Below are positions 8,008 through 12,728 of a stretch of 32,909 bases of DNA, piece by piece (position 1 is the stretch's first letter; the number at the start of each line of letters is the position of its first letter). The notes under the pieces were generated by a model, which made no database searches, was not told the DNA's origin, and worked only from the letters and a program-made list of their open reading frames with translations. The DNA is from Helicobacteraceae bacterium (GTDB taxonomy: Bacteria > Campylobacterota > Campylobacteria > Campylobacterales > Sulfurimonadaceae), in the NCBI GenBank assembly GCA_027066325.1, contig JAMONY010000046.1, positions 1-32,909 on the forward strand, given 5' to 3'. Made by a program: the position numbers and the translations under genes.

Positions 8008-8208
8008 CTAACTCATACTGTAACGCTTCTTGAACTTCTCAACGCGTCCAGCAGTATCTACAATCTTCTCAGAACCTGTAAAAAATGGGTGACACTCATT
8101 GCATATATCTATACGCATAGCAGCCTGAAGACTTTTTGTCTCAAACTCATTACCGCATGCGCAAGTAACCGCGCAAGCAACATAATTTGGGTGAATCTCT
8201 TTTTTCAT
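8008..8208 (-). CDS. rpmE: 50S ribosomal protein L31, zinc-binding form
   Basis: 66 residues, usual L31 length. Zinc ligands are present: Cys16 and Cys18 (CACGNEF) and Cys36 and Cys39 (CNECHPF), so this is the C+ paralogue expected under zinc-replete conditions. The ending KFKKRYSM is typical. AAAGG lies a few bases upstream of the ATG. The gene follows a structured leader with two hairpins and an upstream TATAAT, so it probably starts a transcription unit that continues into rsmI. Confidence 0.97.
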
Positions 8209-8280
8209 TATATGCCTTTAAGCTCACGCCTCTGCGTAAGCTAGTATATTGTTTATATCCGTACGGGTGCGGATAGTTGA
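8209..8280 (-). promoter_or_regulatory. Structured 5' leader of rpmE (candidate L31 autoregulatory RNA)
   Basis: Two hairpins lie in the untranslated leader. The proximal one (8221-8242) pairs AGCT and ACGC with GCGT and AGCT, with one C/A mismatch and a 4-base loop. It ends just before the Shine-Dalgarno. The distal one (8256-8275) pairs TATCCG with CGGATA around an 8-base loop. No T-tract follows either one, so they do not look like intrinsic terminators. L31 leaders are known in several other phyla; ligand and function here are inference. Confidence 0.45.
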
Positions 8281-8306: not shown

Positions 8307-11300
8307 TTAGTCTCTGAAGGATAGAGTCTCTCTTCGTCTGCGGTAGAGTAGAGTGTAAGCACTAAGAGCTATCAGGAGTGCGAGCACAAATCTTCCAATC
8401 TCACCTATAGTAGGCACCTCAACTGGTTTTTTTGCTACAGTAGGATCTGTGTCACCAAGTGGAATTGGATCATCACTAAGCGTAGACTCATTTCTCTCTA
8501 CTGTGCCATCTCCATTGTGATCCCAAAAAGCTATAGCTTGATTTTCAACCTCCAAAACTGCATTTGCTACATCAGTTCTAAATGTTATCACAACCTCATT
8601 ATCTGAATCATCTTCACTAGTTCCACCAATATCTGAACCTATGGAGCCCTCCCAGTAGACTGTATGTGTCACAGAGTCGTACTCACATCTAGTTGTAGCA
8701 GAGACCCCTCTAGGTTCACAATTTAACGAGCCAGAAACATATGTAAGATCGCTACTTAACGGATCTTCTACTACGATATTGTATGCTACTGCATTGGCAT
8801 CATTAATCCAAACCATCTTCCACTCTATCTCTGGCCAACCAGCTGCATTAACTCTCTTTTTTGCACTTGGAGGGTCAAAAACATTTGTATACATAGTCAC
8901 GATACCCATATCCCAAGTAAGATCATTCTCACCTGCAGTTAGTGTTGTCACAGCTGTTCTTAAAGTTGTTGCGTCAGTATCGCTATCTACTGCCCCATCA
9001 GCTCCCACGCCTTGTGGAGACACTGCATATCCTACTGGTAGCGTAAAGCTTACAAAATAATCACCTGGTATAAGATCCGTAAACTTATATGCTCCTGTGG
9101 TGGTTGTTATGGTGGAGATTAGCGCATTGGTTGTGCCATTATATAGAGTTACATTAATCTCTTCGGTTACATTTAACTCATCTGCATCTTGTATGCCATC
9201 TGCATCTGCATCAAACCAGATTCTATTGCCTATGCTAGCTGGTTGATAGAAACCAAAATCTACAGTTAGATTGTCGTTATTATCATCTGTGCCGTTGACA
9301 TCGCTTCCTGCTAGCCCATCCTCTGCGGTTGGTTCGCTATCGTTGGTAAGCGTAATAAGTCCGCTTGTGTAACTTCCATCTGCATTATCTATTTTTATGT
9401 TTGAGTCGGTTGCTGTATCATCATTGTCAGATATATTTTGAACTGGTGATGGCACATATCCAGATGGCGGAGTCACTCTGATTGAGTAGTTGCCCTCATC
9501 TAGATTACTAAAATAATATAGCCCATCCATAGATGTTGTTTTAGTATCTATAACTGTGCCGTTACCATCTAGCAACTCTACAAGCGCACCAGATATAGGT
9601 GTTTCGGTTGCATCTTGTAACCCATTACCATCTGAATCATTCCATATTAATGAGCCCACAGAGAGTGCTGGTGCTGAAAAACCAAAATCCAAAGTATGAT
9701 TACTCTCACCAGCCCTGCCTGTTGTATAGGCTATGGTTGAAAAATTAGCATTTAGATCTCCGTTGTCACCATCACTATCTCTCTGATCTGCGCTTAAAGC
9801 ATCTTGCACTGTTACCACCAAAGATGCTAATGGCGCATTTGTAGATAGTGGAACCCTTATCTGATAGTCTGTATTGTACTTAAGCGATACTCCACCAGCA
9901 CTATTTAATCCACCAAAATAGTATGTTCCACTACTATCTGTTGTAGTAGTTCCAACTAGCACAGACCCCTCATATAGCTCAACTACAACTCCACTCAAAG
10001 CTGGCTCATCAGGGTCTTGAATGCCGTCCCTATCAATATCGTTCCATATGTAGTTACCTATCTCTATTGGTGCTGGATCACATAACGCTTCCATATCACC
10101 AATACCACTTGCTTTACCATAAAAAAAGGCTCCATTATCTTTTGAAACAAGGAGTCTTTTAGGTCTGCTAGATCCATCTAAGCTAACTGTACCATCATCA
10201 TTTCTAAGCCATATCAGACCGTTATCAACACCACCACCTTGAGAGTCCATTACACCCGTTACAATATCTGGATATCCTGCTATATACAGAAGTCCTCCCA
10301 TGGTAGTTTCAGAGTGTCCGCTACTACCTCCGTTGACATTACCATTACCGCCTGGTCCATTATCGTACCAATAGTACTCTCCTCCTCCTAAGCCTTCGCC
10401 ACTACCTGCCCCGCCTGTAGTAGAGCCTCCACAAGTTCCATTGCTCTCAAGAGTCCACCCAAGCTCTGCATTACCACAAGCTCTCAATAGATCCCCATAA
10501 CTATTACCATTTTGGCTAGTGAAATCTGTTGAGTCTGGTGAGTGGTTGTTGTGTCCTGTTCTATCTCCGTTGATATCTTTTATCTGGATAATCATAGAGC
10601 CATCATAGTCAAACTCTATATCTGAAAGGAGTGGTTGTTGGTACTCAAGGTAAGCATCTTGATTACCGATATTGCCAGGTTTTTTATCATTAAAAACAAT
10701 ATCATAATCCATCTGCCATGGATTCCAATCAGCAGTAAATGGATGTGTTGCTCCATCTTTATCTGTAAACTGGTGACAACTACCTGGAGGGTTTGTATTG
10801 CTTATATTGCTATCATATGAGCAACCTCTACTATATGTAAGATCTATATCTAAAACTGGTGTAGGAGCAAATGTACTAAGAGCTGGATCAAAACTATAGA
10901 TATGTGCGGATAACTGGCTTCTATCGCCATACCTAGCGCCACCATAACTATCATCAGGATCATTGATATTTACAGTTGATTCTGCTGTACATGTCACACC
11001 CACATAAAGCTTACCATCATTAAAACCTAAACCCATAGGACGAAAATCTTGTAGCGTTGGGCAAGGGTTTGGGATAGAGTGGATACTATAGCTACTGATA
11101 TTGGCACTTATATCGATACCATAAACATCAAGCGTTCTTTGCCCCATGTTGATGGCAAAAAGCTTTGATTCATCATCTGAGATCTCTATGTCTCCAACAC
11201 CAACTTTACCTACACTTGCATACCCTTGTGTATCATGGGTCCAATCATAAGGCATAGCAGTACGCGGATCTGTATTGCCTGGTAAATTAGCAAATGTTGA

Positions 11301-11963
11301 AACCGCATTTGCGTTATTGTGCTCAAGCTTATATATAGTGCCTGGACCGCCTGAGCCCAGATCAGAATGTCTCTTAAAATATGCAGAGACCAAAGTTATG
11401 TTTGCCATCTTAAGATGAGCAACACCATACACAGAGCCTAAATCAGAGTATGTGGCCAAACCTGCTGGAGTATCAGTTCCATTTGCACTATATGGAAACT
11501 GCAACAAGACATTAACAGCAGAACCGTTACCATCACGAGCATCTTTTGTAAACCTTGTCAAAATGATCTCAGGGTCAGCTTGACAATACTCTCCAGAACT
11601 ATCAAGACCAACATTGTGTATCTGCGCATCTGCTACTATGCTAACCAAAGCAGACCCGTTACTATCAGCTGCTAAACCAGAGTGGAGATAGCTTGGTAGC
11701 CCACTAATCTCAACCCTATAAGATCCAGAAGTAGTTGCTAAATGATAGCTACCATTTAGATCAGTTACTGCAGATATTGACACTCCTGCGGCATCATATG
11801 CTGTAACATTAATACCCGATACACCAGGCTCCAATCCATCTTGTGTGCCATTAAGATTGTAGTCTCTAAAAACTGTGCCATCTATGCTTGATAGCAGAAC
11901 CGTTGGCATCAAAACCAGCCCAATAGTTAAAAAAATAGCTACTTTTACTCTTCTAAAGTCCAT
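8307..11963 (-). CDS. Large exported SdrD-B-repeat protein with IPTL-CTERM-like C-terminal anchor
   Basis: 1218 residues. The signal peptide spans about 1-25 (hydrophobic core FLTIGLVLMPTVLL). Four SdrD-B-type beta-sandwich domains carry the signature of the DGxQDxxE calcium loop: near residues 25-120, 634-762, 768-905 and 909-1020. Between the first and second lies a region of about 500 residues (130-630) with blade-like segments (IEISDDESKLFAINMG) and a Gly-rich stretch at 512-550, possibly a beta-propeller. Residues 1030-1140 resemble a DUF11-type repeat. The tail has VPTIGEIG at 1183-1190, a hydrophobic helix, then RRRR, the three-part plan of IPTL-CTERM sorting signals handled by exosortase-like enzymes. 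The usual Trp is Ile here. A surface or matrix role is inferred. It has its own likely promoter and sits between rpmE and rsmE, which are adjacent in Campylobacter, so it appears to be an insertion. Confidence 0.85.
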   Translation of the reverse strand: MDFRRVKVAIFLTIGLVLMPTVLLSSIDGTVFRDYNLNGTQDGLEPGVSGINVTAYDAAGVSISAVTDLNGSYHLATTSGSYRVEISGLPSYLHSGLAADSNGSALVSIVADAQIHNVGLDSSGEYCQADPEIILTRFTKDARDGNGSAVNVLLQFPYSANGTDTPAGLATYSDLGSVYGVAHLKMANITLVSAYFKRHSDLGSGGPGTIYKLEHNNANAVSTFANLPGNTDPRTAMPYDWTHDTQGYASVGKVGVGDIEISDDESKLFAINMGQRTLDVYGIDISANISSYSIHSIPNPCPTLQDFRPMGLGFNDGKLYVGVTCTAESTVNINDPDDSYGGARYGDRSQLSAHIYSFDPALSTFAPTPVLDIDLTYSRGCSYDSNISNTNPPGSCHQFTDKDGATHPFTADWNPWQMDYDIVFNDKKPGNIGNQDAYLEYQQPLLSDIEFDYDGSMIIQIKDINGDRTGHNNHSPDSTDFTSQNGNSYGDLLRACGNAELGWTLESNGTCGGSTTGGAGSGEGLGGGEYYWYDNGPGGNGNVNGGSSGHSETTMGGLLYIAGYPDIVTGVMDSQGGGVDNGLIWLRNDDGTVSLDGSSRPKRLLVSKDNGAFFYGKASGIGDMEALCDPAPIEIGNYIWNDIDRDGIQDPDEPALSGVVVELYEGSVLVGTTTTDSSGTYYFGGLNSAGGVSLKYNTDYQIRVPLSTNAPLASLVVTVQDALSADQRDSDGDNGDLNANFSTIAYTTGRAGESNHTLDFGFSAPALSVGSLIWNDSDGNGLQDATETPISGALVELLDGNGTVIDTKTTSMDGLYYFSNLDEGNYSIRVTPPSGYVPSPVQNISDNDDTATDSNIKIDNADGSYTSGLITLTNDSEPTAEDGLAGSDVNGTDDNNDNLTVDFGFYQPASIGNRIWFDADADGIQDADELNVTEEINVTLYNGTTNALISTITTTTGAYKFTDLIPGDYFVSFTLPVGYAVSPQGVGADGAVDSDTDATTLRTAVTTLTAGENDLTWDMGIVTMYTNVFDPPSAKKRVNAAGWPEIEWKMVWINDANAVAYNIVVEDPLSSDLTYVSGSLNCEPRGVSATTRCEYDSVTHTVYWEGSIGSDIGGTSEDDSDNEVVITFRTDVANAVLEVENQAIAFWDHNGDGTVERNESTLSDDPIPLGDTDPTVAKKPVEVPTIGEIGRFVLALLIALSAYTLLYRRRRETLSFRD

Positions 11964-12002: not shown

Positions 12003-12008
12003 ATTATA
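12003..12008 (-). promoter_or_regulatory. Probable -10 element for the SdrD-B gene
   Basis: TATAAT preceded by TTGTA (a TG-extended form one base away) lies 40 bases before the ATG at 11963, in an A/T-rich 78-base gap after rsmE. AGTGAG before the ATG serves as Shine-Dalgarno. No clear -35 is present. This would let the large gene be transcribed apart from the rsmE block. Confidence 0.45.
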
Positions 12009-12041
12009 TACAAATACTCTTAAAGATTTAAAATTAATTCT

Positions 12042-12728
12042 TTAAATTAATATTTTGCTTGATATTGCCAAAACCGCACTCTCTGCACGCAAAATCATCT
12101 TGGTACTAAAACTAAAAACTTTTTGCTCTAAAAAAAGCTCGCGTTCACGCTCACTAAAACCACCTTCACAGCCCACAATTACAACCTCTATCGCAGAAGT
12201 ATCTTCAAGAGTAGTTGATGAGAGATCTAGCACTGCACTATTTGGATATTGTTGTAGAAACTGATCTATAGAGCCAGTCTCTTCAAAGATCATCATATCT
12301 GTTCTGCCACACTGCTGCATTGAGTTTAACACAATTCTCTCTAAGCGTTTAAGGTCTATTTTAAAAGAATTTTGTGATCTATCGCTCTTTATAAAAGTGA
12401 TTTTTGAGACCCCAAATTCACATAGCGAACCCAACACCTTCTCGATAGATTTTGGATCCACAATAGCCCAACCTATATGTAACGATCTTTTAGGTTCTAT
12501 TTTTAATTTTTGTGAATTTTGAAGGCTCAATGTGGCTTTTCGCCCATCTACATGAGTAACTACATAAGTAAAAAGTGATGTTGTGTCTGCTAGCGAACGA
12601 AGATATACGCTATCTGAGACTCTGTGTCGACATGCTCTGATAATATGCTTAAAACTCTCACCTTTTAAAATAAGAGTTTTGCAACCAGCACTCTCATTAA
12701 AAAAGAATCTCAAATCATCATCATCCAT
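12042..12728 (-). CDS. rsmE: 16S rRNA (uracil1498-N3)-methyltransferase RsmE
   Basis: 228 residues with an N-terminal PUA-like RNA-binding domain (1-70, GESFKHIIRACR) and a C-terminal SPOUT methyltransferase domain (about 80-228). Family motifs visible are KVLGSLCEFGVSKI near 97, SDRSQ near 115, QQCGRT near 138, GCEGGFSERE at 186-195 (usually GPEGGFS) and MILRAESAVLA near 211 (usually ILRTETA). It methylates U1498 of 16S rRNA. Two starts are possible: ATG at 12728, giving MDDDD, with a 19-base overlap with the upstream gene; or TTG at 12713, giving MRFFF, with a 4-base TTGA overlap and a more family-like N-terminus. Neither has a strong Shine-Dalgarno. Confidence 0.88.
   Translation of the reverse strand: MDDDDLRFFFNESAGCKTLILKGESFKHIIRACRHRVSDSVYLRSLADTTSLFTYVVTHVDGRKATLSLQNSQKLKIEPKRSLHIGWAIVDPKSIEKVLGSLCEFGVSKITFIKSDRSQNSFKIDLKRLERIVLNSMQQCGRTDMMIFEETGSIDQFLQQYPNSAVLDLSSTTLEDTSAIEVVIVGCEGGFSERERELFLEQKVFSFSTKMILRAESAVLAISSKILI

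Follow-up and report, generated by a model that had tools for sequence, protein, structure and literature searches.

A large SdrD-B repeat protein with a divergent IPTL-type tail, a probable substrate of an XrtH-like exosortase in a Helicobacteraceae genome

Exosortases and related enzymes belong to the membrane proteases and act on C-terminal tags composed of a motif, a helix and a basic cluster, and their substrates are apparently left anchored at the cell surface, perhaps by transpeptidation (PMC11980579). A three-part C-terminal signal is also found in the GlyGly-CTERM/rhombosortase and MYXO-CTERM/myxosortase systems, and homologous protein bodies with interchangeable tails are known from such sorting systems (PMC3237569). 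Fibrillar adhesins use SdrD_B and DUF11 as stalk domains (PMC9210967), and intramolecular isopeptide bonds have been predicted for both families (PMC12617251). Our searches of the full-text literature, a scope that leaves out most subscription papers, returned only an incidental co-mention in a planctomycete paper for exosortases together with Campylobacterota or Sulfurimonas, and no paper for exosortases together with IPTL-CTERM or XrtH. Within this scope, which is no proof of novelty, there is hardly any description of exosortase sorting in Campylobacterota. The present analysis offers specific candidates for the enzyme, the helper and the substrates in a phylum that includes important pathogens and major members of the sulfur cycle. 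Here, we propose with a probability of roughly three in four that P0001, a large protein of a Helicobacteraceae bacterium related to Campylobacter and active in the sulfur cycle, serves an XrtH-like exosortase as a divergent substrate of the IPTL type and is probably a stalked surface adhesin.

The window, that is the whole stretch of DNA analyzed, is the 32,909-nt contig JAMONY010000046.1 of assembly GCA_027066325.1. P0001 (8307..11963, minus strand, as are all of its features) is an exact and complete ORF of 1218 amino acids with an ATG start, predicted to encode an exosortase-type surface protein. Residues 1-25 (11889..11963) resemble a Sec-type signal peptide with RR, a hydrophobic core and SS, as judged by inspection and hydropathy; among all 17-mers of the protein, the one with the highest hydrophobicity begins here at residue 8, and the helix of the tail (window from residue 1189) ranks second. 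The initial annotation had described four SdrD-B domains, and four SdrD_B stretches were indeed found by Pfam (E=2.2e-82, 273 bits, cut-off 29.7). Domain 1 (∼residues 27-120, 11604..11885), domain 2 (∼633-767, 9663..10067, with a DIDRDG loop at 642) and domain 3 (∼768-905, 9249..9662, with a DSDGNG loop at 776) were delimited by inspection, and domain 4 (residues 909-1021, 8901..9239) is the best Pfam stretch.

The first SdrD_B domain is followed by the central domain (residues 123-640, 10044..11597), which had been annotated as a region of about 500 residues of no assigned family and has no Pfam match. Weak profile similarity to the propeller structures 1l0q, 3fgb and 6zea, of which 1l0q passes only as a whole sequence, suggests that it possibly forms a head resembling a β-propeller; an AlphaFold model calculated without an alignment was worthless (pLDDT 31). 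Other solved structures, of SdrD and UafA (4jdz, 8vdk, 10ps), match P0001 via the B repeats. The last domain before the tail (residues 1023-1179, 8427..8897) is an FDPPSA/DUF11-like domain with 54% identity to a protein of genome G285 and 75% identity over 44 amino acids to a sequence on contig C18 of the P0001 genome. The DUF11 similarity noted earlier is present but weak, below the cut-offs of both Pfam (14.6 bits vs. 24.6) and TIGR01451 (18.1 vs. 24).

P0001 shares the SdrD_B stalk domains and the plan of stalk plus head with the staphylococcal MSCRAMM SdrD and with fibrillar adhesins (PMC9210967). It differs from SdrD in its head and its Gram-negative host, and it shows neither an LPXTG anchor nor a match to the N-terminal binding region. 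The staphylococcal full-length models for SdrD and SdrC, NF012181 (167.6 vs. 2500) and NF000535 (124.5 vs. 1700), respond to the B repeats only.

The C-terminus of P0001 reads PVEVPTIGEIG RFVLALLIALSAYTLLY RRRR ETLSFRD and contains all three parts of a sorting signal (8310..8426): the proline motif VEVPT (residues 1181-1185), a 17-residue helix (1191-1207) and the basic cluster RRRR (1208-1211), followed by seven more residues. VPTIGEIG, the hydrophobic helix and the arginines had been read in the same way by the initial annotation, which also correctly stated that Ile replaces the Trp of the IPTL-CTERM family. Compared with GlyGly-CTERM and MYXO-CTERM, the motif contains neither Gly-Gly nor Cys, and the candidate enzyme is unrelated. 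IPTL-CTERM is closer, with its Pro-Thr/Leu motif, helix and basic end. Nevertheless, the P0001 motif is VEVPTIGEIG, and the motif shared with the related tails described below is VxVP[TL] instead of IPTL. The IPTL-CTERM model TIGR04174 (cut-off 20.5) matches neither this tail nor the second tail of the genome, although a consensus-like peptide used as positive control scores 44.9. One tail of the related genome G013, located beside an orthologous exosortase, does pass the model (22.2), and the tail at locus L072 reaches 19.7. With an XrtH-like enzyme in the genome, the term “variant IPTL-CTERM” chosen in the initial annotation is apt. Searching with a short DNA pattern of the tail returned 391 matches and was of no use.

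A search of the genome for similar tails revealed a second one, APVAVPLNSEAGRYALIFAMMLAASMLLARRRRYI (VAVPLNSEAGR, helix, RRRR), at one end each of contigs C57 and C62. The two ends have exactly 127 nt in common and then diverge. Because this identity is read as a repeat collapsed at an assembly word of 127, the second tail is probably present in two or more genes, of which no full copy is contained in the assembly. Its owner may be a paralogue of the end of P0001 rather than an unrelated protein, and a candidate is located on contig C18: a giant SdrD-B protein of more than 2290 amino acids (locus L011, 2-6871), cut by the contig end inside an FDPPSA domain like that of P0001, may own the C57/C62 tail. 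Its homologue in genome G058 (L127, 12109-18003) is 37-51% identical. Tails of the same kind, VTVPLSPLALGF..., VAVPLSNSSKLL..., VTVPLSPFALLL..., VAVPLFVDAASF... and VGVPLGSETAYL..., terminate genes beside orthologous exosortases in other genomes, with the motifs VTVPLSP, VAVPL or VGVPL, and two more are found elsewhere in G013.

Alternatively, the tail could be a plain transmembrane anchor, so that P0001 stays in the inner membrane by means of its helix and the positive-inside RRRR, the exosortase having other substrates. The missing IPTL match fits this explanation, and so does a leave-out test, in which the tail model was rebuilt without both tails of this genome: the second tail was recovered (12.7 bits), but that of P0001 scored 4.3 bits, like ordinary C-terminal helices. 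The P0001 tail is thus tied to the tail family mainly via its genome-mate and could, on its own, easily pass for an ordinary membrane helix. On the other hand, the two tails are 50% identical over 32 residues, and of 454 C-termini, 10 have VxVP[TL] placed 18-38 residues before the end; all 10 are collected tails, which had themselves defined the motif. Moreover, homologues of the P0001 body go together with exosortases elsewhere (see below), and a large stalk protein would have no obvious use on the inner membrane of a Gram-negative cell. We consider the plain anchor unlikely and retain a divergent sorting signal as the preferred reading.

The tail had been taken to imply an exosortase-type enzyme, and a genome search identified one on contig C35 (4708-5199, minus strand, 163 amino acids). 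With this enzyme and the second tail, neither of the two absences that the initial annotation had listed as refuting was observed. It is the only protein of the genome above the PF09721 cut-off (39.4 bits vs. 25.7), it also passes TIGR04178 (59.2 vs. 23), and its presumed catalytic residues Cys73, Arg114 and His133 are invariant in 11 divergent Campylobacterota exosortases as well as in the 12 of the XrtH-like clade. On the XrtH model TIGR04177, which describes the IPTL-linked exosortase of NCBIfam, it scores 74.8 bits and thereby remains below the cut-off of 86, but a 72% identical orthologue from the same genus (L061) exceeds this value (88.4). The highest raw score, 77.5 bits, was obtained with Exosortase X (NF046081). 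We rejected this identity because the score is far below the cut-off of 170 and the neighboring gene points to XrtH: this gene adjoins and overlaps the exosortase gene, and its closest model is the XrtH-associated membrane protein NF041730 (31.5 bits, E 1.4e-7, cut-off 35). Enzyme and putative helper are thus both nearest to the exosortase H/NF041730 system while staying just under its curated cut-offs, and the scores, together with those of the orthologue, indicate that the C35 enzyme is an XrtH-like exosortase. The same contig contains an RHS-repeat-like fragment near the exosortase genes (L010, 9102-9569).

Since the genome is a draft of 82 contigs, the pairing could in principle be a binning artefact, with either C35 or the P0001 contig foreign to it. 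P0001, however, shares its contig with rpoB/rpoC and with genes for ribosomal proteins, and C35 carries mnmG, as do three orthologous loci of other Campylobacterota, in addition to an exosortase with the 72% identical orthologue in the genus. Such an artefact is therefore highly improbable.

A contig scan with the XrtH-associated protein identified 13 loci, all in Campylobacterota records labeled Helicobacteraceae, Sulfuricurvum, Sulfurimonas, Nitratiruptor, Campylobacterales or Epsilonproteobacteria; the same type of scan with a three-row exosortase alignment found no loci. At every locus with both genes complete, the two adjoin, and the pair shows conservation across genomes of the Sulfuricurvum, Sulfurimonas and Nitratiruptor types. 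Among 298 genomes of the phylum, strong matches to the tail model (E 5.1e-11 or better) were restricted to the three genomes with the XrtH-like exosortase type. This distribution is partly circular, since those tails built the model; its non-circular part is that nothing elsewhere is better than E 0.0018. Two exosortase-bearing drafts of the same genus, G299 (89% complete) and G300 (76% complete), gave no tail match at E 0.01.

Homologues of the central domain of P0001 (residues 123-640) are present in 4 of 397 Campylobacterota genomes, namely its own and three of family f4. All three of these that were included in the exosortase scan (the genome of P0001, G058 and G096) are positive, compared with a base rate of 12/298 (p ∼5e-5, treating genomes as independent although they are related); the fourth, G320, lies outside the 298 genomes scanned. 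This association of body and exosortase is the observation referred to above as speaking against a plain anchor.

P0001 is flanked upstream by rsmE (12042..12728), which is present in all eight genomes of the genus, and downstream by rpmE (approximately 8012..8209) and rsmI, all on the minus strand. The initial annotation had proposed that the gene separates rpmE from rsmE, and this agrees with the situation in the same genus: the rsmE-rpmE gap measures ∼122 nt in G191, G298 and G302 and ∼360 nt in G300. In G288 and G301 (L108, L109), a lipoprotein-like gene of 264 amino acids lies in this gap in the opposite orientation, and the site may thus take up genes repeatedly. A TATAAT element with a weak –35 region precedes P0001 (TTTAAA-18-TATAAT, 12003..12032, minus strand) and is a possible promoter from a consensus scan only, in which promoter-like sites were fewer than in shuffles (9 observed vs. 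13.3). That P0001 may have been acquired, as suggested earlier, is supported by comparison of the genomes: no homologue was detected at E 0.001 in the seven other genomes of the genus or in G013 and G031, and a 53% identical homologue occurs in another family. Its composition is not foreign (GC 41.5%, window 40.1%) and gives no support to a foreign origin.

Based on the processing of exosortase tags, the role of stalk domains and the weak propeller similarity, we interpret P0001 as a surface protein that is sorted by an exosortase and combines a stalk with a head that is possibly propeller-like. According to this model, the signal peptide would direct P0001 through the Sec pathway across the inner membrane, and the C-terminal helix, with RRRR inside, would hold it there. 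The XrtH-like exosortase, with the XrtH-associated membrane protein as presumed helper, would recognize VxVP[TL] at the outer face of the inner membrane and remove the tail, and the new end would probably be joined to an envelope component. The mature protein should then be displayed at the cell surface, with the SdrD_B domains as a stalk that carries the central, probably propeller-like domain. Attachment or a matrix role seems most likely for such a protein; the calcium-dependent function mentioned in the initial annotation is conceivable.

P0001 might also reach the surface, or be released, by another route that does not involve the exosortase as partner, for example through a second protease or through a three-gene cassette beside the giant SdrD-B protein on C18 (L011, 6989-10515). 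This cassette encodes an NQR2/RnfD-like protein of 272 amino acids and two proteins of 606 and 296 amino acids that belong to no family. Giant SdrD-B proteins of G058 (L127) and G320 (L124) are likewise accompanied by the latter two, at ∼40-50% identity, and the 272-amino-acid gene also occurs in G058, a recurrence that speaks for this route. In G058, however, the closest homologue of the P0001 body adjoins an exosortase gene, and the P0001 tail has the three-part plan of sorting-enzyme substrates (PMC3237569, PMC11980579). We therefore regard a separate route as improbable, and sorting by the XrtH-like enzyme remains our preferred explanation.

The homologue in G058, from another family, is 53% identical to P0001 over 853 residues and located ∼1 kb from the exosortase gene of that genome. 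A frameshift lies close to the end of this homologue, where the long ORF terminates in ...GGGCRAL and a different frame leads on to the tail NDSGGGSAMGVISGLLMIFLSAGLGLWMIRREES. The copy may therefore be defective or a product of mis-assembly; nearly the same tail is borne by an intact paralogue of 1880 amino acids. The G285 protein related to the last domain of P0001 also ends in a different tail, SDSGDTLGNWSLFILMFLTGLIGLYYVRKEE. Tails of the form DSG-helix-R[KR]EE, or looser versions of it, were observed on giant SdrD-B-type or related proteins of G234, G058, G285 and G320 (L040, L041, L127, L126, L039, L124). They pass no curated tail model and possibly represent an undescribed sorting signal.

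In G234, G058 and G285, the exosortase is of a second clade, ∼25% identical and without an XrtH-associated protein. In a tree, a fully supported split divides the 12 XrtH-like sequences from this second clade, which belongs to family f4, although some branches are long. We tentatively suggest, as an idea with slightly less than even odds, that two exosortase lineages use their own tail codes, VxVP[LT]...RR for the XrtH-like enzymes and [SN]DSG[DG]...R[KR]EE for the second clade, and that the giant proteins and the cassette, which might be display machinery, are associated with either lineage, the giant proteins carrying the tail that matches the exosortase of their genome. Judged by the available models, the second code is of no known family. 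Homologous bodies with different tails and different exosortases would provide a natural test of tail discrimination, which is poorly understood. In addition, a protein of 207-232 amino acids ending in YDF or YHF, a barrel-like end, is encoded either adjacent to the gene for the second-clade exosortase or a few kb away (L040, L041, L042, L043).
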